Assembly: GCF_038396765.1 (NCBI RefSeq)
Contig: NZ_CP150096.1
Coordinates: forward strand, 229,501 to 293,500
Reading direction: 5' to 3'
Length of the DNA: 64,000 nucleotides
From: Chitinophaga caseinilytica
GTDB lineage: Bacteria; Bacteroidota; Bacteroidia; Chitinophagales; Chitinophagaceae
The stretch's first letter is position 1. Each line of letters begins with the position of its first letter. The notes under the pieces are model-generated. The model was not told the DNA's origin. It did no database searches and saw only the letters and a list, made by a program, of their open reading frames with translations. Made by a program: the position numbers and the translations under genes. Positions 39,752-50,381 of the stretch are shown here, piece by piece.

Positions 39752-41899
39752 ATGAAAAGGAACTGGCTCCTGATTTGCCTTGCAGGCATATTTTCCCTGC
39801 CGGCGCTCGACAGCTACGGGCAAAAGGGAAAATTCACGCAATACGTCAACACTTTCCTGGGCACCGAGCCCCTGAACGATTCCGCCATCGTAGGCTACCG
39901 GCTGCCGGACGGCTTGCGCTCCTGGGCAGGGCTCACCTTTCCCGGCAGCTCGCTCCCCAATGCCATGGTACAACTGAGCCCCATGACCGAATACGGTTCC
40001 GGCGCGGGGTACGAGTACGAAGACTCCCTCATCCTGGGATTCACTCACACCAATAAAGGCCACTGGAACCTTTGCCATGTTCCCGTGTTACCCTTTTCCG
40101 GGGAAGCACCGGGCAATGGGTCGCGCTTCTCGCACAAACGAGAATCCGCAGCGCCAGGGTTTTACCAGGTATATCTCGATGACTATAAAATAGATGTGCG
40201 CCTCACTTCCACCCTGCGCTGCGGGTTCCACCGGTATGTATACCCGCTTTCCACCGGCCGCCGCATCCTCTTCGATCTGGCCCGGGCCAATAACCGGGTG
40301 GGCGACTGGCAGATAGAACAGTCGGGCAGCCGCGCGCTGCAAGGTTTCCAGCAAACCGGCGAACGAATCTATCTTTACGCCGTGCTCAATACGCCGGTGG
40401 CGAAACTGGAGAAAACCGAAGAAGGGAAACGCAGCGGTCGCGCCATTGCAATATTGGAAAATGGGAAAGGCCCGGTGGAAATGAAGATCGGTTTCTCTTT
40501 CGTAAGCATTCAAAACGCAAAAGAAAATCTGGAAAAAGAGATCGGGGAACGATCGTTCGAAACGGTTCGCGCCGCCGCGAACACATCGTGGGAACAGCTG
40601 CTGTCGAAAGTGGAAGTGAAAGGCGGGACGGAAAAACAGCGGACGTTGTTCTACTCCAGTCTTTACCGCTCCTTCCTCTGGCCCGCGCTGCGCAGCGATG
40701 TGAACGGCGATTTCACGGGGGCCGACCGGCAGAAGGCGAATACCGGTTTCCGGTATTACACCGAACCGTCGCTCTGGGATACGTACCGGAACAAAGATGT
40801 GCTGCTGGGGCTGTTATCGCCCGATGTGGCGCTGGATGTGATCAAGTCGATGAAAGACGTCGGTGATAAAAAAGGCTTCATCCCCACGTTCTTCCACGGC
40901 GACCATGGCGCGTCTACCATCGCCGGGGCGTACCTCCGCGGGATCGACGGGTTCGATGTGAAGGGAACGTACGACATCCTCCTGAAAAACGCGAACCTGG
41001 AGCCCGGCGCGCGGCCGCATATTAAGGAATACATCGAAAAAGGGTTTATTTCCGATCCCGATATCGAAAAACCGCATGTGGAAACCAAAGCCAAAGCAGG
41101 TGTTTCCAAAACACTGGAATATTCGTACGACGATTATTCCCTTGCCCAGCTGGCCCGCGCGCTCGGCGATTCCGCCAACTACCGCACGCTCATGCAACGT
41201 TCGAAGAACTACCGCAACATGTTCGACCCTTCGACCCGGTTCATGCGCGGTCGACTGGCGAACGGCGACTGGATCACGCCTTTCGATCCGCAATATCCTT
41301 ATTACGAATACATGTACCGCGAGGCGAACGCCTGGCAGGTATCGTTTTACGCACCGCACGACATGCCCGGCCTCATTCAGTTGTACGGCGGCGCGGCGGG
41401 TTTCGAATCGAAGCTGGACTCGCTGTTCACCGTGCCCTGGAACCCGCGCCACATCGCGCGGAACGTGGAATCGATGATCGGGCAGTACTGTCATGGCAAC
41501 CAGCCCGACCATGAAGCGCCATTCGCTTATTATTTCATCGGCAAGCCGGAGAAATCGCAACGGATCATCGATACCATTCTCAATCACCTGTACGGCATCG
41601 GTGAATTCGGGAACGCGCTCTGCGGGATGGACGATGCCGGTGAAATGTCTGCTTGGTATGTGTTCTGCGCGGCGGGTCTGTATACTTTTTCCGCAACGGA
41701 CCCAGCGTATCTCGTAACCGTTCCGCTGTTCGATGAAGTAAAATGGAAGGCGGCCAACGGCAAATGGCTGACGTTGCGCAAACAGGGCCGCAGCCGCAGC
41801 CTGAAAGGCGTTCGGGTGGATGGGGAACCGCTGGACGGGTGGTTTGTGCCGCACCGTTTGTTCAGGAACGGCGGGGAGGTTTTGGTGGAAACGAAGTAA
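39752..41899 (+). CDS. GH92 family alpha-mannosidase
   Basis: The protein has 715 residues with a signal peptide (MKRNWLLICLAGIFSLPALD). GH92 landmarks: YVNTFLGTEP near the start, LGFTHTNKGHWNLC, YREANAWQVSFYAPHDMPGL with the likely general acid Glu, GNQPDHEAPFAYYF, and GMDDAGEMSAWYVF with the Asp pair for base catalysis. GH92 enzymes are calcium-dependent exo-alpha-mannosidases acting on N-glycans and mannans. It stands alone on the plus strand. A 36-codon ORF overlaps its stop codon. Confidence 0.96.
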   Translation: MKRNWLLICLAGIFSLPALDSYGQKGKFTQYVNTFLGTEPLNDSAIVGYRLPDGLRSWAGLTFPGSSLPNAMVQLSPMTEYGSGAGYEYEDSLILGFTHTNKGHWNLCHVPVLPFSGEAPGNGSRFSHKRESAAPGFYQVYLDDYKIDVRLTSTLRCGFHRYVYPLSTGRRILFDLARANNRVGDWQIEQSGSRALQGFQQTGERIYLYAVLNTPVAKLEKTEEGKRSGRAIAILENGKGPVEMKIGFSFVSIQNAKENLEKEIGERSFETVRAAANTSWEQLLSKVEVKGGTEKQRTLFYSSLYRSFLWPALRSDVNGDFTGADRQKANTGFRYYTEPSLWDTYRNKDVLLGLLSPDVALDVIKSMKDVGDKKGFIPTFFHGDHGASTIAGAYLRGIDGFDVKGTYDILLKNANLEPGARPHIKEYIEKGFISDPDIEKPHVETKAKAGVSKTLEYSYDDYSLAQLARALGDSANYRTLMQRSKNYRNMFDPSTRFMRGRLANGDWITPFDPQYPYYEYMYREANAWQVSFYAPHDMPGLIQLYGGAAGFESKLDSLFTVPWNPRHIARNVESMIGQYCHGNQPDHEAPFAYYFIGKPEKSQRIIDTILNHLYGIGEFGNALCGMDDAGEMSAWYVFCAAGLYTFSATDPAYLVTVPLFDEVKWKAANGKWLTLRKQGRSRSLKGVRVDGEPLDGWFVPHRLFRNGGEVLVETK

Positions 41900-43464: not shown

Positions 43465-46400
43465 TCAGATTGGCGTGTTGAGGGTTACGGCCGCCACCGA
43501 CACATCGCTTCCCTTCGCGGCGCTTACATGCAAACGGTAAGCCGCCGGGTTGAAAGGGATTTCCACTTTCATGACGGCGCCCTTGCCCAGGCGCTCTTTA
43601 CGGACGGCTTTCCCTTCCCTGTTGAGCCGCACCAGCACCCATTCAAAAGTAACATCCCCGTCAACGGCGTATCGCCAGTTTCCGTGCTCCATGATGAGTG
43701 CACGGTACTCCAGCGTTTTGCCTTCGCTGGCGGTCACCGCCGGGCGCAGAATGTTGACGGGTGGCAGTGATTTTGACGGGAGGGTTGGATGCCAGATAGC
43801 GCGGAGCCGGTGCCAGTCGGGCTTATGACGCCCTTCCACATCCAGGAGCCCGTTGAAGGTGACGCGGTTCGTGGCTTCCTCGTCTTGCCAGGCCGCCACG
43901 AAAACGCCGGTTTCCTCCGGCCCCGCGGTCGCATACAACTGCACCGGCGTGGCACTGAGGAACCATGGCGCAGCAACGTCTTTCAGCTGAACCAGTCCCT
44001 CCCCGCCGGGAGGCAGCACCACGCCGAACGCCGCCGCCTGCGGGATTTCGTCGGTCAGGTACTGGAGCATGCCCGCCAGGTTCCCCTGAGCGTCTACGTC
44101 TATCGTAACCGGGCGGCCGGGATCGGTTTCGCGGATCCTTTGCACCAGGCCTCGCAGCCAGGCGGTATAAGCCTTTTGCTGATAGAGATAGGCCGGTTTC
44201 ACGAACCGGTACTGCAATAATTTGAACGCCGTGTTCGCCAGGCTCCAGGCTTTGATTTCCGGATGATGCTTCATACGGCCGACTTCCGCCACGATCGCAT
44301 CTGCCTTCTTCTGCATGGTTTCCGCATCCGCCAGGGCATCGCCGACCGGCGGCAACCAGAAGCCGTAATGCAGGCCTATTCCCGTTTCCGCCGCGGCCAC
44401 CAGCACGTTCCGGTCGTATGCGCCCGGGCCGTAGCGTCGCACGGTATTGACCCCGACGGTCCGCATCTCCCTGAAATCGTTCACCACTTCGGCCCGCGTG
44501 AGCGTATGCAGATTGCGGAACCAGTTACCGCCTTTTTGATATTGCATGCCGCGCAAAGTGTCCGTCCACCGGGGGCGGGAAGCCATCTGAACAGGCGGTT
44601 GGATGAAATGTAGTTGCTTGAGAGGCGCTACGGCACCGGGTTTCCCGCGGGTCAACCGGAAAAAGTCGCCCCCATCCTGCAGCTGCCAATCGATTTGCGG
44701 AACATTAGCACCGGGCGGTACATTTTTATCGAAAGCCGAATTGAACACCACGAACGCCTGTACTTCGCGGAAGCTGCCGGTGATCGATTTCGCGGCGTCT
44801 TCCATCCATCTTTTCTGCCGCTCGCCGCGCAGCGATCCGCCTTCTGCCACCATCACCGGCAGGCCCGACCGGAAAATGGATTTCCGGCGGAAGGGCGCGT
44901 ACAATTCCGCAAACGTGTAATCCTTTCCGTTAGCAGACAGCGTATCGTAGTTCAGCATCGTTACCCCGATCCAGTCTACATACCGCCGCCCTGGAAACCC
45001 CGGCTCCACCGCTTCGGGCTTCCAGGGATTCCACACCCACACGGCGTTGTAGGCACGCTCGGCCTGGAAGAGATCATGCACATGGCGCCAGGCGTTTTTC
45101 GCTTCCCCGGCCGTGTTCCCGCCTTCGGGCGACCATGGGTAGGCGGGATTGTCGGCCTCATGCGCGAACCGGATAAACACGGGCCGGTTCAACGCCCGCA
45201 CCTGCCGCGCGAATTTTTTCACGTATCCGTCGAACACGCCTGCCGTGATGCGCGACATTACTTTCCGCTCCCTGGCGAGCTCCGGATCGTTGGCGGAAAA
45301 AGCAAACCCCGAGGCCCAGGGCTCCCAGGTGATCATCGGCGCCGATCCGTTCCTGTAAATTTCCTCCGCAAGCGGGAACGGCAGTTCCGACTGCGGCCCG
45401 TCGCCCCAGGGGATGTACAGGGAAACGATGTCGGCATGCGTAGCAAACTCCCGCTGGAAGCCTTCCCAACCTTCCCGCCGTGTGATCCCTCCAGGCTCCG
45501 AAGGCTGGAAAACGCCGGTGTAAAAGATAGGTTCCCGGGCCTGCGAACCCGGCTCGCCCGATAAATACGCCTGTTGCGTGCTGCCGAACAAGTACAGCGT
45601 GGAAATGGCCATCAGCAACATGATCGGGAAGGCGAACTGGCGCAAGCCCGCGTAGATGCCGTGCCGGAAGTTCCAGAAGTATTGCTTCAACGTACGGTAA
45701 TACGAAAAACTGTTGCGCAGCACGCGGAACTGCGTCCGCATTTCCTGCACGTCCTTTTGCCGGCTGATGGCGATGTTGCAACTCATCACGAGGAAATTGA
45801 TCCCGGCGATGCCGGCCATGATCCAGGTGTAAGGGTTCCAGTCGATATACAAACCATACACGATGGCCGTCAGTGAACATACGGCCACAATGATGTTAGG
45901 CAGGTTGAGTATCCAGTTGTCTTTTTCCTTATCGTCTTTCGGTGTGGGGATGTAAGGCACTTTTTTCCGGATGATCGTGTAAACGAGCCCCACGATATGC
46001 ACCCACCAGGTGCCGATGAGCAACACGCCTCCCAGCACATGGTTCCCCCGTTCGCCGCGGCCCATCACCCATCGCTGCACGAAATGCCGGATCGCCAGGA
46101 TGCTCACCAGGAACGGAAGTCCGGCGAGGGCAAACAGTACCAGGTCCATTTTGAACGGGATGATCCCCATCGACAAGGCCAACACCGGTACGATGAAATT
46201 CAATCCGAAAATCAGCCCGGATAAGTAATGCAAAGGCGCCGTCCCGTAATGGAGCCGTTGCGCCCAGGTGAATTTCCGGAACAGCTTCGGATAGGTGACG
46301 AACAACAATTCCAGGCTTCCGCGCGCCCATTTCAACTGTTGTTTGTAATAGGCCGACAAGGTAGACGGGACGCGCCCTTCCGTGAGCACGGCGGGCAGGT

Positions 46401-47226
46401 AGGCCGATTTCCAGCCTTTCGCGTGGAGCTGCATGGCCGTGTGCATATCTTCCGCCAAACCGGCCGCATGCCCGCCGATGGAATCCAGCGCCGCCCGCCG
46501 GAAGGTACAGTTGGCGCCGATAGCGAGCACCGTGCCGTAGCGGTTCATCGTCATCATCATCGGGCCGTAAAAATGGAACGTCTGCTGCGCCGCACCTTTG
46601 GCGATCAGGCTGTCGCCGAGATTATAATACGCCTGCACGATCTGCACATACCCGATATTTTCGTCGTTGAAGAAGGGAACGATGGGATCGAGGAGGTCGG
46701 GAGACGGAATATGGTCCGGGTCGAGGATGACGCAAAGCTCGCCCGTGGCGAATTGCAGCGCGTTGTTGATATTCCCGGCTTTCGCGTTGGTGCGGTGGTT
46801 GCGGGTTACATGCCGGACGCCCAGTTTGCGGCACACTTCCTTGAGATAGGGATCGTCGGCTTCGTCGCAGAGCCAGGAAGTATGCGGATAAGTAACGGCC
46901 TGCATGGCTTCGAGGGTTTGCACGATCATTTCGTAAGGTTCCCCCGGGCAGAAGGTCGTCAGGATATCCACTGAAAACTGCCGGTTACCGGGTTTGGGCT
47001 TCGGAACGGAAATGAAGAGATAGTGATACCATTCGTGCAATATCCGCAGACAGGCAAAAACCGTTGCGCTCACGAACATCCAGTACAGCACGGGGTGCCC
47101 GATGTGCGTGGGCCGAAGCAGGCAATACAGGAAAAAACACAAGCCCAGCGTGCCGATGGCGATCATCAGCCGCAGAGAGAGCATATCGCTCCGGGTGGGT
47201 TGTGGGGCTTGTTTCAGTTCACGCAT
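43465..47226 (-). CDS. GT2 membrane glycan synthase fused to GH26 and a second TIM-barrel domain
   Basis: A 1253-residue fusion. Residues 1-75: two membrane helices. 85-330: a cellulose-synthase-like GT2 domain with CDEADDP (120-126), DPD (169-171), the catalytic AED (258-260) and QQLKW (296-300, variant of QxxRW). 330-550: several membrane helices. 565-830: a GH26 domain with ITWEPW, acid/base Glu690 in RFAHEADN and nucleophile Glu795 in VAEGG. 880-1110: a GH2/GH5-like barrel that reads WSLANTAF where LGNE is expected, so the acid/base Glu is missing. 1110-1253: beta domains. It may make a beta-linked glycan and trim it on the periplasmic side (inference). The gene follows a secreted hydrolase with a three-base gap. 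Confidence 0.88.
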   Translation of the reverse strand: MRELKQAPQPTRSDMLSLRLMIAIGTLGLCFFLYCLLRPTHIGHPVLYWMFVSATVFACLRILHEWYHYLFISVPKPKPGNRQFSVDILTTFCPGEPYEMIVQTLEAMQAVTYPHTSWLCDEADDPYLKEVCRKLGVRHVTRNHRTNAKAGNINNALQFATGELCVILDPDHIPSPDLLDPIVPFFNDENIGYVQIVQAYYNLGDSLIAKGAAQQTFHFYGPMMMTMNRYGTVLAIGANCTFRRAALDSIGGHAAGLAEDMHTAMQLHAKGWKSAYLPAVLTEGRVPSTLSAYYKQQLKWARGSLELLFVTYPKLFRKFTWAQRLHYGTAPLHYLSGLIFGLNFIVPVLALSMGIIPFKMDLVLFALAGLPFLVSILAIRHFVQRWVMGRGERGNHVLGGVLLIGTWWVHIVGLVYTIIRKKVPYIPTPKDDKEKDNWILNLPNIIVAVCSLTAIVYGLYIDWNPYTWIMAGIAGINFLVMSCNIAISRQKDVQEMRTQFRVLRNSFSYYRTLKQYFWNFRHGIYAGLRQFAFPIMLLMAISTLYLFGSTQQAYLSGEPGSQAREPIFYTGVFQPSEPGGITRREGWEGFQREFATHADIVSLYIPWGDGPQSELPFPLAEEIYRNGSAPMITWEPWASGFAFSANDPELARERKVMSRITAGVFDGYVKKFARQVRALNRPVFIRFAHEADNPAYPWSPEGGNTAGEAKNAWRHVHDLFQAERAYNAVWVWNPWKPEAVEPGFPGRRYVDWIGVTMLNYDTLSANGKDYTFAELYAPFRRKSIFRSGLPVMVAEGGSLRGERQKRWMEDAAKSITGSFREVQAFVVFNSAFDKNVPPGANVPQIDWQLQDGGDFFRLTRGKPGAVAPLKQLHFIQPPVQMASRPRWTDTLRGMQYQKGGNWFRNLHTLTRAEVVNDFREMRTVGVNTVRRYGPGAYDRNVLVAAAETGIGLHYGFWLPPVGDALADAETMQKKADAIVAEVGRMKHHPEIKAWSLANTAFKLLQYRFVKPAYLYQQKAYTAWLRGLVQRIRETDPGRPVTIDVDAQGNLAGMLQYLTDEIPQAAAFGVVLPPGGEGLVQLKDVAAPWFLSATPVQLYATAGPEETGVFVAAWQDEEATNRVTFNGLLDVEGRHKPDWHRLRAIWHPTLPSKSLPPVNILRPAVTASEGKTLEYRALIMEHGNWRYAVDGDVTFEWVLVRLNREGKAVRKERLGKGAVMKVEIPFNPAAYRLHVSAAKGSDVSVAAVTLNTPI

Positions 47227-47229
47227 GGT

Positions 47230-48567
47230 TTATTCTACTACATAAAAAGGCGTATTGGCGGTGGCGACGTGCCCTTCCCGGTCTGTGACCTGCACGAATA
47301 TCCGGTAGGGCCCGCCGCGCCGGGGCGTCACAAAAGACAGCTCCAGTCCGTCTTCCGCACGAACGGTGGTGTCGATCATAATATCGGGTTTCTTTGGTCG
47401 CCCGGTGCCGTGATACCAGTTTTCCTGCGTCACTTTCCACGCCAGTGTGGCGATGGGCGCGCGATTGGCGGCATCGAGGAAGAGGCTGGCCGTTTGCCGG
47501 CTGCCGGGTGTGAGCAGGATGTTGTCGCGGGCGCCTTTGCCGCCGAGGAGCATATATTTTATCTGCGGCCAGGTGGTGTTGGCGGATTTTCGGCCCCAGG
47601 ATTCGCGGAGCGCCGCTACGGCTTCGGTGGGCTGGCCGGATGTGGAGAAAAGGCTGAACCATGTGCCGGTGGCTTCGTCCCGGTATCCCCAGTAAAATGC
47701 GAGGGCGCCCAGGCAGCGGGGGTTTTGCAATGGCAGGTCGGTCACCATTTTGCGTAACTGTTCCGCTTTTTTGCTGCTCGTATTTTCGACGGGCGCTTGC
47801 CAGGCGGTGTATTCCGACTCCCAGGGTCCGTATGCGCCCCATTCCGCAACGAGGAACGGCCCGTTCCAGATGCGGGAAAACTGCTCCAGCCGTTCGCCCA
47901 GTTCATGCAGCCGCCCGAAGGTATTGAAAGAGATCACATCGAGCCCCGGCACGCATTGCCGGATCATCCAGATCTGCGCGATATTGAAATTGGGAAGCGT
48001 AGTGGTGACGGGATGGTCGGGATCGAGCTCGTGGATCGAGGCCAGGAGGCGGTTGTAGGTGGAATAGAACCCCCTGTGCCCGGGCCTCCACGTCATCACC
48101 GGCTCATTCCCCAAACACCACATGAGCAGCGCCGGATGATCGCGATAACGCAGCACGGCGGCGCGAACGCCCGCCTCCAGTGAATCGGTCTTGCGTTTGT
48201 CCCGGTAAAAAAACTTTTCATAAGGGCTCGAAGGAATGGGCAATCCTGCGATCACGGCGAGGCCCTGGCTTTGCGCTTCGTCGAGGAACGCGCGGAGGTT
48301 GGCGGTATCATACGTTCTGACCGTGTTGCCGCCGGCCGCGGCGAGCGAAGCGAGGTCTCCCCGGCCGGAGGCGCCCTGCACAAAAAACGGGCGCCCGTTG
48401 CGGTAGAGCGTATATTTCGCGCCATCCTGCCGGATATGCACCTTTCCCTTATTCCGCAACGGCTGCGCCAGCGGCCCGCCACCGTTCAGCAATGGCATAC
48501 CCCAGGCCGCAACGGCCATCAGGGCGGCAAGCGCCCCCGTCCATGTCAAAATTCTCCGTATCTGCAT
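47230..48567 (-). CDS. Secreted TIM-barrel glycoside hydrolase (GH2/GH5-like)
   Basis: A 445-residue protein with an N-terminal export signal or anchor (residues 5-25). The barrel has RNGRPFFVQGASGRGDL, GGNTVRTYDTANLRAFLDEA, the acid/base Glu155 in WCLGNEPV and the nucleophile Glu242 in FLVAEWGAYG, then a C-terminal beta domain. The architecture fits beta-glycan hydrolases or transglycosylases of clan GH-A. It is first in an operon with the GT2-GH26 fusion and is related in fold to that protein's third domain, but with intact catalytic residues. It may process the polymer made by the synthase. Confidence 0.85.
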   Translation of the reverse strand: MQIRRILTWTGALAALMAVAAWGMPLLNGGGPLAQPLRNKGKVHIRQDGAKYTLYRNGRPFFVQGASGRGDLASLAAAGGNTVRTYDTANLRAFLDEAQSQGLAVIAGLPIPSSPYEKFFYRDKRKTDSLEAGVRAAVLRYRDHPALLMWCLGNEPVMTWRPGHRGFYSTYNRLLASIHELDPDHPVTTTLPNFNIAQIWMIRQCVPGLDVISFNTFGRLHELGERLEQFSRIWNGPFLVAEWGAYGPWESEYTAWQAPVENTSSKKAEQLRKMVTDLPLQNPRCLGALAFYWGYRDEATGTWFSLFSTSGQPTEAVAALRESWGRKSANTTWPQIKYMLLGGKGARDNILLTPGSRQTASLFLDAANRAPIATLAWKVTQENWYHGTGRPKKPDIMIDTTVRAEDGLELSFVTPRRGGPYRIFVQVTDREGHVATANTPFYVVE

Positions 48568-48914: not shown

Positions 48915-48941
48915 TAAAAAAAGGCGGCCCGAAAGCCGCCT
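48915..48941 (-). terminator. Terminator of the Gfo/Idh/MocA gene
   Basis: Stem AGGCGGC (48922-48928) / GCCGCCT (48935-48941), loop CCGAAA, followed on the minus strand by a run of T. It lies 10 bases after the stop. Confidence 0.85.
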
Positions 48942-48950
48942 CCCAGGTGG

Positions 48951-50381
48951 TTACACCTTGTAATATTGTTCCCAACCCTTGCGCGGCGGCGGGCCCACGA
49001 GGAGCGCATTGGCCGCTTTGTCGTTGGTGATGATTTTCTTTTCGCGGTCGAACTGGATCTTACGACCTGTCCACTGCGCCACCACGCCGAGGCAGAACAC
49101 CTGGCTGAGCGGACCGGCGATTTCGAAGGGAGAACGGGTCTTTTCCTCGCCTTTGCAGGCCAGCAGGAAGTTGGCGTAGTGATTGGAAGGGCTCTTTGGC
49201 ACTTCGGGCAGTTTGCCGGCCATCTCTTTCGCTTTTTCTTCAGGGATGATGGAAAGCGTAGACGCGTGCGAACCGCCTTTGAACGTCAGGTCTTTGCTGT
49301 AAATGATCTTGCCCGGATTAAGCTTGGCGGGTTTGATGGTGCCTGTGCTCGGGGGCGGAATGTTCGGATCGAGGCCGGAAACGCCGTAGCCGGCGGGGAT
49401 CGGCGGAAGGTTGTCTACCCCGTCGTACCACATTACATCCACCGCAGGCATTTGTTTGCGGGCGGGGAATTTAAACGAAAGCGTGGTAGATGTGGGATAG
49501 AAGAAATTGTTGTGGCCCGTCAGCTTGATGGGATCTACTTCGTGGGGCAGGCCCAGGTCGAGGAACTGGTGGGCCGTATCGAGGATGTGCGCGCCCCAGT
49601 CGCCGAGGGCACCCATTCCGAAGTCGAACCAGCAGCGCCATTGGCCGTTGACGAAGTCCTTATTATAGGTGTGCCCCTGCGTTTGCATCTGCCAAACGTT
49701 CCAGTCGAGCGTTTCGGGCGTGGGCTCGGTGGCGGGGAAAGATTTGATATTCGTATCCCATCCGTGCCAGCGGCGGGGCGAGTTCATATGTGCAACGATC
49801 TTGTCGACGTCTTTGATGATCCCGGCTTCCTTCCAGGCTTTGAACTGGAAATAGTTGGCTTCGGAATGGCCCTGGTTGCCCATCTGGGTCACTACTTTCG
49901 GATGTTTGCGGGCGGCTTTCATCATGAGCTCCACTTCCTGGAAAGTGCGCGCCATGGGCTTTTCGACATACACGTGAATGCCGAGGCCGATGGCCATCAT
50001 GGTGATGGGGAAATGCGCGAAGTCGGGAACGCCGACGGAAACGGCATCGATCTTTTTGCCCATTTTGTCGAACATCTGCCGGAAATCCTGGAACCGGGGT
50101 ACGTCCGGGAACAATTTCATGACTTCCAGGGTGTGGGGAGCGCCCATGTCTACGTCGCACAGCGCAACGATGTTGGCCAATCCGGTTTTATGCAGTTCGC
50201 GGATGATTTCTCCTCCCCGGTTGCCGATACCGATGCAGGCCAGGTTCACTTTTTCGTTGGCCCCGATCCTGCGGGGCAAGGCGCCGCCGCGGGCCATGAG
50301 AATGCCGGGCGTAGCAAGAGCAGCAGAGGCCATCATGGCCTGTTGGAGGAACTTCCTCCGGGAGTATTCGTTATGCATCAT
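48951..50381 (-). CDS. Gfo/Idh/MocA family oxidoreductase, Tat-exported
   Basis: A 476-residue protein with a twin-arginine signal (SRRKFLQQAMMASAALATPG). The NAD(P)-binding Rossmann part has ACIGIGNRGGEIIRELHKTG and ALCDVDM, and the family motif EKPMAR follows in HVYVEKPMARTFQEV. The C-terminal part is the Gfo/Idh/MocA substrate domain. The likely activity is on sugars or inositols in the periplasm, with the cofactor bound before export. It is transcribed alone, ends at a terminator and is divergent from the plus-strand trio. Confidence 0.94.
   Translation of the reverse strand: MMHNEYSRRKFLQQAMMASAALATPGILMARGGALPRRIGANEKVNLACIGIGNRGGEIIRELHKTGLANIVALCDVDMGAPHTLEVMKLFPDVPRFQDFRQMFDKMGKKIDAVSVGVPDFAHFPITMMAIGLGIHVYVEKPMARTFQEVELMMKAARKHPKVVTQMGNQGHSEANYFQFKAWKEAGIIKDVDKIVAHMNSPRRWHGWDTNIKSFPATEPTPETLDWNVWQMQTQGHTYNKDFVNGQWRCWFDFGMGALGDWGAHILDTAHQFLDLGLPHEVDPIKLTGHNNFFYPTSTTLSFKFPARKQMPAVDVMWYDGVDNLPPIPAGYGVSGLDPNIPPPSTGTIKPAKLNPGKIIYSKDLTFKGGSHASTLSIIPEEKAKEMAGKLPEVPKSPSNHYANFLLACKGEEKTRSPFEIAGPLSQVFCLGVVAQWTGRKIQFDREKKIITNDKAANALLVGPPPRKGWEQYYKV

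Follow-up and report, generated by a model that had tools for sequence, protein, structure and literature searches.

A widespread GT2-GH26 fusion in Bacteroidota that carries a degenerate GH158-like barrel and is linked to a GH158-like enzyme

The stretch of DNA considered here (the window, 64,000 nucleotides; C1:229501-293500 of the Chitinophaga caseinilytica genome G000, a single 6.5 Mb contig) carries on its minus strand a unit of two genes separated by 3 bp, the upstream one encoding a GH158-like enzyme (open reading frame (ORF) B) and the downstream one a single polypeptide in which a BcsA-like GT2 synthase is followed by a GH26 domain and by a third domain, D3, a GH158-like barrel without its catalytic pair. 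The domain order, the predicted folds, the states of the catalytic residues and, in the examined loci, the pairing of the two genes are shown by the data, and this widely conserved synthase-hydrolase fusion, with its degenerate barrel and a GH158-like partner constant in those loci, is real. To judge from its sequence, the unit is likely a maker of a beta-1,3-containing glucan with periplasmic processing. The GT2-GH26 fusion itself, in which an earlier note on this DNA had seen a candidate for an undescribed exopolysaccharide system, is apparently undescribed: a literature search, outside which most subscription papers lay, found no account of it. The unit consists of the following parts:

43465..47226, minus strand: GT2-GH26-D3 fusion protein, 1253 residues, D3 being a GH158-like barrel without the catalytic pair
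45550..47226, minus strand: BcsA-like GT2 core and membrane part, residues 1-559
44632..45549, minus strand: GH26 domain, residues 560-865, with acid/base E690 and nucleophile E795 assigned by alignment
43468..44631, minus strand: D3, residues 866-1253, a GH158-like TIM barrel with an Ig-like tail
47230..48567, minus strand: ORF B, GH158-like enzyme, 445 residues, with N154/E155 and E242 intact and an N-terminal hydrophobic segment

Domains of the synthase and of its partner enzyme

In structural comparison (Foldseek matches and a second alignment of the same matches; families outside the listing may also match), the GT2 core, the channel and the position of the gating loop all match BcsA. The window protein carries the motifs DPDH (169-172), ED (259-260) and QQLKW (296-300) and a gating-loop-like TPK (428-430). 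Across a comparison set of 198 rows, comprising the window protein, 119 database proteins and 78 ORFs of named loci (193 rows are distinct, and some genomes are represented twice), the named GT2 residues are invariant: D, DxD and ED are kept, and K replaces R in QQxKW in every row. By hydropathy, two segments precede the GT2 domain, a BcsA-like set follows it, and one segment at 531-549 stands directly before GH26. Segment 397-415 is consistent with the interface helix that BcsA has ahead of its gating loop; with this assignment, three segments lie past the gating loop, from which we infer that GH26 and D3 are periplasmic.

The GH26 domain exceeds the Pfam PF02156 cut-off (27.5 versus 20.2 bits), and both of its catalytic Glu are intact and aligned, E690 being kept in 196 and E795 in 194 of the 198 rows, which bears out the earlier description of a GT2 synthase with its membrane part fused to a catalytically intact GH26. 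In both fold and sequence it is closest to the lichenase CtLic26A, a mixed-linkage glucanase, and not to mannanases. The domain is thus predicted to be of the lichenase type; of the two substrates that had been suggested for it, mixed-linkage glucan fits, and beta-mannan appears unlikely.

D3, introduced in the note as a further barrel, is present and can now be described more closely as a predicted GH158 fold, a TIM barrel with an Ig-like part; structural comparison also finds similarity to GH2 mannosidases. Its acid/base place, 999, is well anchored, directly following model strand 4 (residues 991-997) and being equivalent, through W994+5 and N998+1, to W150/N154/E155 of ORF B. Glu occupies this place in none of the 198 rows, Asp in 26, and two rows have a gap. 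The nucleophile place is weakly anchored: at 1093, where strand 7 ends, Glu is found in 0 of 198, and at 1092, whose offset from the conserved Pro1087 equals that of E242 from P237 in ORF B, in 31 of 198. The window protein has T999, A1092 and T1093 and therefore neither catalytic Glu. Twelve rows combine Asp999 with Glu1092 (L079, L082, L084, L086, L089, L093, L098, L099, L101, L102, L103 and L108), coming from Flavobacteriaceae, Prolixibacteraceae, Balneolaceae, Lewinellaceae and one unclassified member of Bacteroidota. Going by these residues, such D3 domains might retain some activity and perhaps stand midway on the path from enzyme to pseudoenzyme.

ORF B matches the PDB entries 9oro (1e-58) and 6pal (1e-46; ORF B residues 50-444 aligned), and its full-length similarity to BuGH158, together with the catalytic N-E and E, places it in GH158. 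The founding structure of the family is a beta-1,3-glucanase. In BuGH158, E137 and E220 follow strands 4 and 7, and activity is abolished by N136A, E137A and E220A (PMC7157763). Among ORF B-type rows, N154 and E155 are kept in 80 of 81, the remaining truncated row having a gap, and E242 in 81 of 81, so that ORF B looks like a catalytically intact GH158-like enzyme. What had been called a secreted clan GH-A hydrolase is accordingly narrowed to GH158-like, and its N-terminal hydrophobic segment, recognized by hydropathy, is either a signal peptide or an anchor. A crude lipobox-like match lies within the first 70 residues of 30 of 80 ORF B-type proteins; none is visible by eye in that of the window.

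Linkage, distribution and domain variants

Genome contigs were scanned with two synthase peptides, giving 586 stretches, of which 544 are relatives; the best 80 were kept and lie in 79 loci. A GH158-like ORF is present on the same strand in all 79 loci, in keeping with the linked hydrolase gene pointed out earlier. In the 77 loci with a measured synthase ORF, the gap between the two genes ranges from -155 to +55 bp and is -4 in 36; these values use mechanical start codons and leave out L034 and L109, in which the match extends to the contig end. Among the earlier loci (L001-L031), 30 of 31 have the GH158-like gene, the exception (L031) having GT2 and GH26 separate. No further gene is common: the next cluster, a tandem GH26-like protein by its representative, occurs in 19 of the 79 loci, and the remaining neighbour clusters, in at most 11, are mostly housekeeping or local, going by the representatives printed. 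The tandem GH26-like protein has about 560-590 residues and is barely or not detected by Pfam (L049:4869-6638, L147:9991-11679, L148:5469-7148).

The recurrence of the fusion in many genomes rules out an assembly artefact, and the proposed survey of GT2-GH26 fusions in Bacteroidota finds them widespread, from Chitinophagaceae to Flavobacteriaceae and also in Balneolaceae. Taxa with the unit include, in addition, Sphingobacteriaceae, Spirosomataceae, Flectobacillaceae, Fulvivirgaceae, Prolixibacteraceae and Lewinellaceae. Within the genus, 26 of 59 other genomes have a match at E = 0, that of G035 being frame-broken, and G057 matches without GH26. An even sample of 395 genomes from the phylum contains 48 with a match at E <= 1e-30, and in 33 the match covers GT2 alone or GH26 alone; three-domain proteins in this sample are those of G000, G218, G176, G286, G267, G199 and G200 and apparently G432, where the protein lies in two contig pieces. 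In G035 (L158, L159), both synthase copies are frame-broken, one of them also in its GH158-like gene, probably through sequencing error or decay, and the apparent split at the GT2/GH26 border there was not used as evidence.

The window's genome holds a second GH158-like plus GT2-GH26-D3 unit (G000:C1:5331435-5336368; L002, L141, L166), whose synthase is 52% identical, and both synthase types also occur in C. deserti (L032, L042) and C. pinensis isolate 3 (L033, L059). Searching the window's genome turned up two PF02156 domains and two GH158-like genes, and every one of these belongs to one or other synthase unit.

Variants of the architecture are of several kinds. Separate GT2 and GH26 neighbours stand behind a TPR protein in L142, L143 and L144 (the TPR assignment coming from Pfam for L142 and L143 and from weak NCBIfam matches for L144), the row consisting of the TPR protein, a GT2 of about 530 residues with QQLKW and a free GH26 (L142:5684-10198, L143:6922-11225, L144:7383-11699); it is perhaps an older, exported version. 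GT2-GH26 proteins without D3, adjoined by a GH158-like gene on the opposite strand, occur in L149-L152. GT2-D3 proteins without GH26 occur in L146-L148, with a tandem GH26-like gene next in the operon in L147 and L148 (that of L147 belongs to no Pfam family and is GH26-like by BLAST), and L145 (G072) has GT2 and the D3 tail only. The congener G057 combines a GT2-D3 synthase with the GH158-like gene. A GT2 tree was built from 98 rows, 95 of them different; its nearest named rows to the window protein are from Chitinophaga. A 90-row group (96*) holds all full proteins; the separate and GT2-GH26 kinds lie outside it, and four GH26-less rows lie at three places inside. The likely history runs from separate genes to GT2-GH26 and on to GT2-GH26-D3, GH26 then having gone missing in three places of the tree; given that the root is set by one very long outgroup row (L153) and by midpoint, this order of domain gains is likely, unproved. 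In the phage Caudovirales GX15bay (MK557849.1, from mangrove soil; L162:5794-9577), a GT2, an annotated endoglucanase and an annotated mannanase stand in a row, the latter two GH26-similar.

Within the window, the GH158-like gene and the fusion gene most simply form a two-gene operon. The upstream neighbour is a GFO/IDH/MocA oxidoreductase gene (Pfam), whose stop at 48951 is followed by a hairpin (48944-48919):

48919..48944, minus strand: terminator-like hairpin with a T tail, 11 pairs, just past the oxidoreductase stop

This hairpin may isolate the oxidoreductase gene from the unit; its position is its sole support, the terminator-like sites numbering 7 against 7.8 expected in shuffles. The Bacteroidota promoter pattern has two matches in the window, a count within chance, and none upstream of the unit. 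Downstream lies a convergent DUF4440 gene (Pfam). The four window neighbours scanned with Pfam are GFO/IDH/MocA, DUF4440, GNAT and GH92; the GH92-family gene (39752-41899) is on the other strand beyond the 3' end of the unit, and nothing ties it to the unit.

Proposed mechanism and alternatives

The fusion protein is proposed to work as an inner-membrane synthase whose glucan contains beta-1,3 bonds and is cut in the periplasm by a domain of the same polypeptide, a mechanism towards which, taken whole, we lean slightly. The cytoplasmic GT2 would polymerize a nucleotide sugar, most likely UDP-glucose, and pass the product, presumably a beta-glucan with beta-1,3 or mixed beta-1,3/1,4 linkages, through the BcsA-like channel. 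An extra C-terminal transmembrane helix, replacing the cytoplasmic PilZ of BcsA, would hold GH26 and D3 on the periplasmic side, close to where the channel opens, and there D3 may bind or guide the emerging chain and GH26 may then cut or transfer it to set its size, the separate GH158-like enzyme trimming the product or removing stalled chains. BuGH158 (in the accessible part of PMC7157763) and CtLic26A have the same folds and share their catalytic residues with ORF B and the GH26 domain; they are free degradative enzymes, and D3, though of GH158 fold, lacks the catalytic pair. The loss of the acid/base Glu in all rows, with the nucleophile Glu left in some, raises the idea of a GH158 barrel turning into a binding module. 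Carried further, this would give an assembly line for glucan within a single polypeptide, of long standing in Bacteroidota and Balneolota, in which such a barrel holds the chain and GH26 cuts or re-joins it, yielding a set-size or ring glucan made by no described system; this extension is unlikely.

Several observations weigh against the proposed mechanism. QQxKW, in all 198 rows, departs from the QxxRW motif quoted for BcsA. The specificities are read through distant relatives, with identities of 26-28% for GH26 and 15-19% for D3. Glu795 is absent in 4 and Glu690 in 2 of the 198 rows. D3 is not evenly dead, Glu1092 occurring in 31 of 198 rows and together with Asp999 in 12; with the nucleophile place not firmly anchored, the notion that D3 is dead throughout the family was dropped. 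The GH158-like gene was not found in G290, G061 and G095, which have the separate GT2/GH26 kind. Searches with PF02156 and with the tandem GH26-like protein did not find GH26 in G057 (one contig, 99% complete) or in G072 (93% complete), and the result in G057 makes GH26 usual, not essential.

The product could instead be a cyclic or short periplasmic beta-glucan, with GH26 acting as a transglycosylase in the manner of NdvB, which we consider fairly unlikely. The accessible part of PMC10237404 describes pseudomonad Orphan/NdvB as a GH17-GT2 protein proposed to make cyclic beta-1,3-glucan, and the layout is alike: the polypeptide joins a BcsA-like GT2 in the cytoplasm to a hydrolase barrel in the periplasm and is encoded outside bcs operons. 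Among described systems, this protein and the Sinorhizobium aps operon come closest to the unit. In line with a product that stays in the periplasm, the 79 loci show no conspicuous outer-membrane export gene next to the gene pair. A profile search of the window's genome, with E. coli as a positive control, did not find BcsB, and no BcsC-type barrel in the genome exceeds the cut-off, the one sub-threshold match (21.5 versus 23.5 bits) lying about 1.1 Mb off; export genes could, however, sit elsewhere. The glycan-making system proposed in the note is thus supported, but its wording as exopolysaccharide is not, a periplasmic product being equally likely. Against an NdvB-like role, the window protein lacks GH17 and has GH26 and GH158-like folds instead, GH26 standing C-terminal to GT2 whereas GH17 is N-terminal (accessible parts of PMC10237404 and PMC11005184), and transglycosylation by GH26 is only putative. 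Orphan/NdvB has QRFRW where the window protein has QQLKW, and within the accessible part of PMC10237404, neither D3 nor the GH158-like partner has a counterpart; the main text of that paper makes no mention of GH26, GH158 or Bacteroid-.

Another possibility, quite unlikely, is that GH26 serves the synthesis of a mixed-sugar polysaccharide such as the arabinose-containing polysaccharide of Sinorhizobium. The S. meliloti pSymB row consists of UDP-glucuronate decarboxylase, epimerase, glycosyltransferase, DUF995, GH26 and DUF995, which fits uxs1-uxe-apsS-apsH1-apsE-apsH2 as given in the accessible text of PMC7902896, apsE being matched by position to the GH26 gene. There too, a BcsA-like GT2 and a GH26 enzyme serve one polysaccharide from one operon, and the pSymB GT2 and GH26 are 27% and 30% identical to the window domains. 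In contrast to the fusion, they are separate proteins, accompanied by nucleotide-sugar genes and with no GH158 in the row. The nucleotide-sugar and DUF995 genes are not among the four window neighbours scanned with Pfam (a search for them that did not extend to the remaining genome), no epimerase-type gene occurs in more than 6 of 79 loci among the printed cluster representatives (clusters 2-15), a GH158-like enzyme is present instead, and the Sinorhizobium GT2 has QEFQW, not QQLKW. In that pSymB row (L160:2953-6920), QEFQW stands where QxxRW is expected, and, judged by E-value, the GH26 resembles the tandem GH26-like protein more closely than it does the fused domain.

A cellulose-type synthase of pure beta-1,4-glucan with unusual trimming enzymes is very improbable and was rejected: the synthase scores 158.8 bits against a cut-off of 699.1 with the NCBIfam cellulose synthase profile TIGR03030, no PilZ is among the Pfam matches of the fusion protein at E<=1, BcsB was not found in the genome, and GH158 with a lichenase-type GH26 indicates beta-1,3 bonds. 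Apart from PilZ and BcsB, the window synthase differs from BcsA in having K for R in QxxRW and an extra helix leading to hydrolase domains. BgsA of Sinorhizobium and Rhizobium etli resembles the window GT2 in belonging to the CelA-like group, and its product is lichenase-cleavable; it differs in its two-gene bgsBA arrangement, HlyD-like partner and c-di-GMP-binding C-terminus, and a fused hydrolase is not mentioned in the accessible part of PMC9495663.

A beta-mannan system is extremely improbable, even counting in its favour that GH26 is best known for mannanases and that D3 also resembles GH2 mannosidases.

Meaning for Bacteroidota

Bacteroidota are known mainly as glycan eaters. A conserved glucan-making unit would suggest that soil, marine and plant-associated lineages make a polymer of the cell surface or the periplasm, and where such GH26 and GH158 genes are annotated for foraging, the annotation may be mistaken. 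The domain variants (separate, GT2-GH26, three-domain and GH26-less) offer natural tests of the role of a hydrolase at the exit of a synthase, and the D3 series grades from enzyme to pseudoenzyme.

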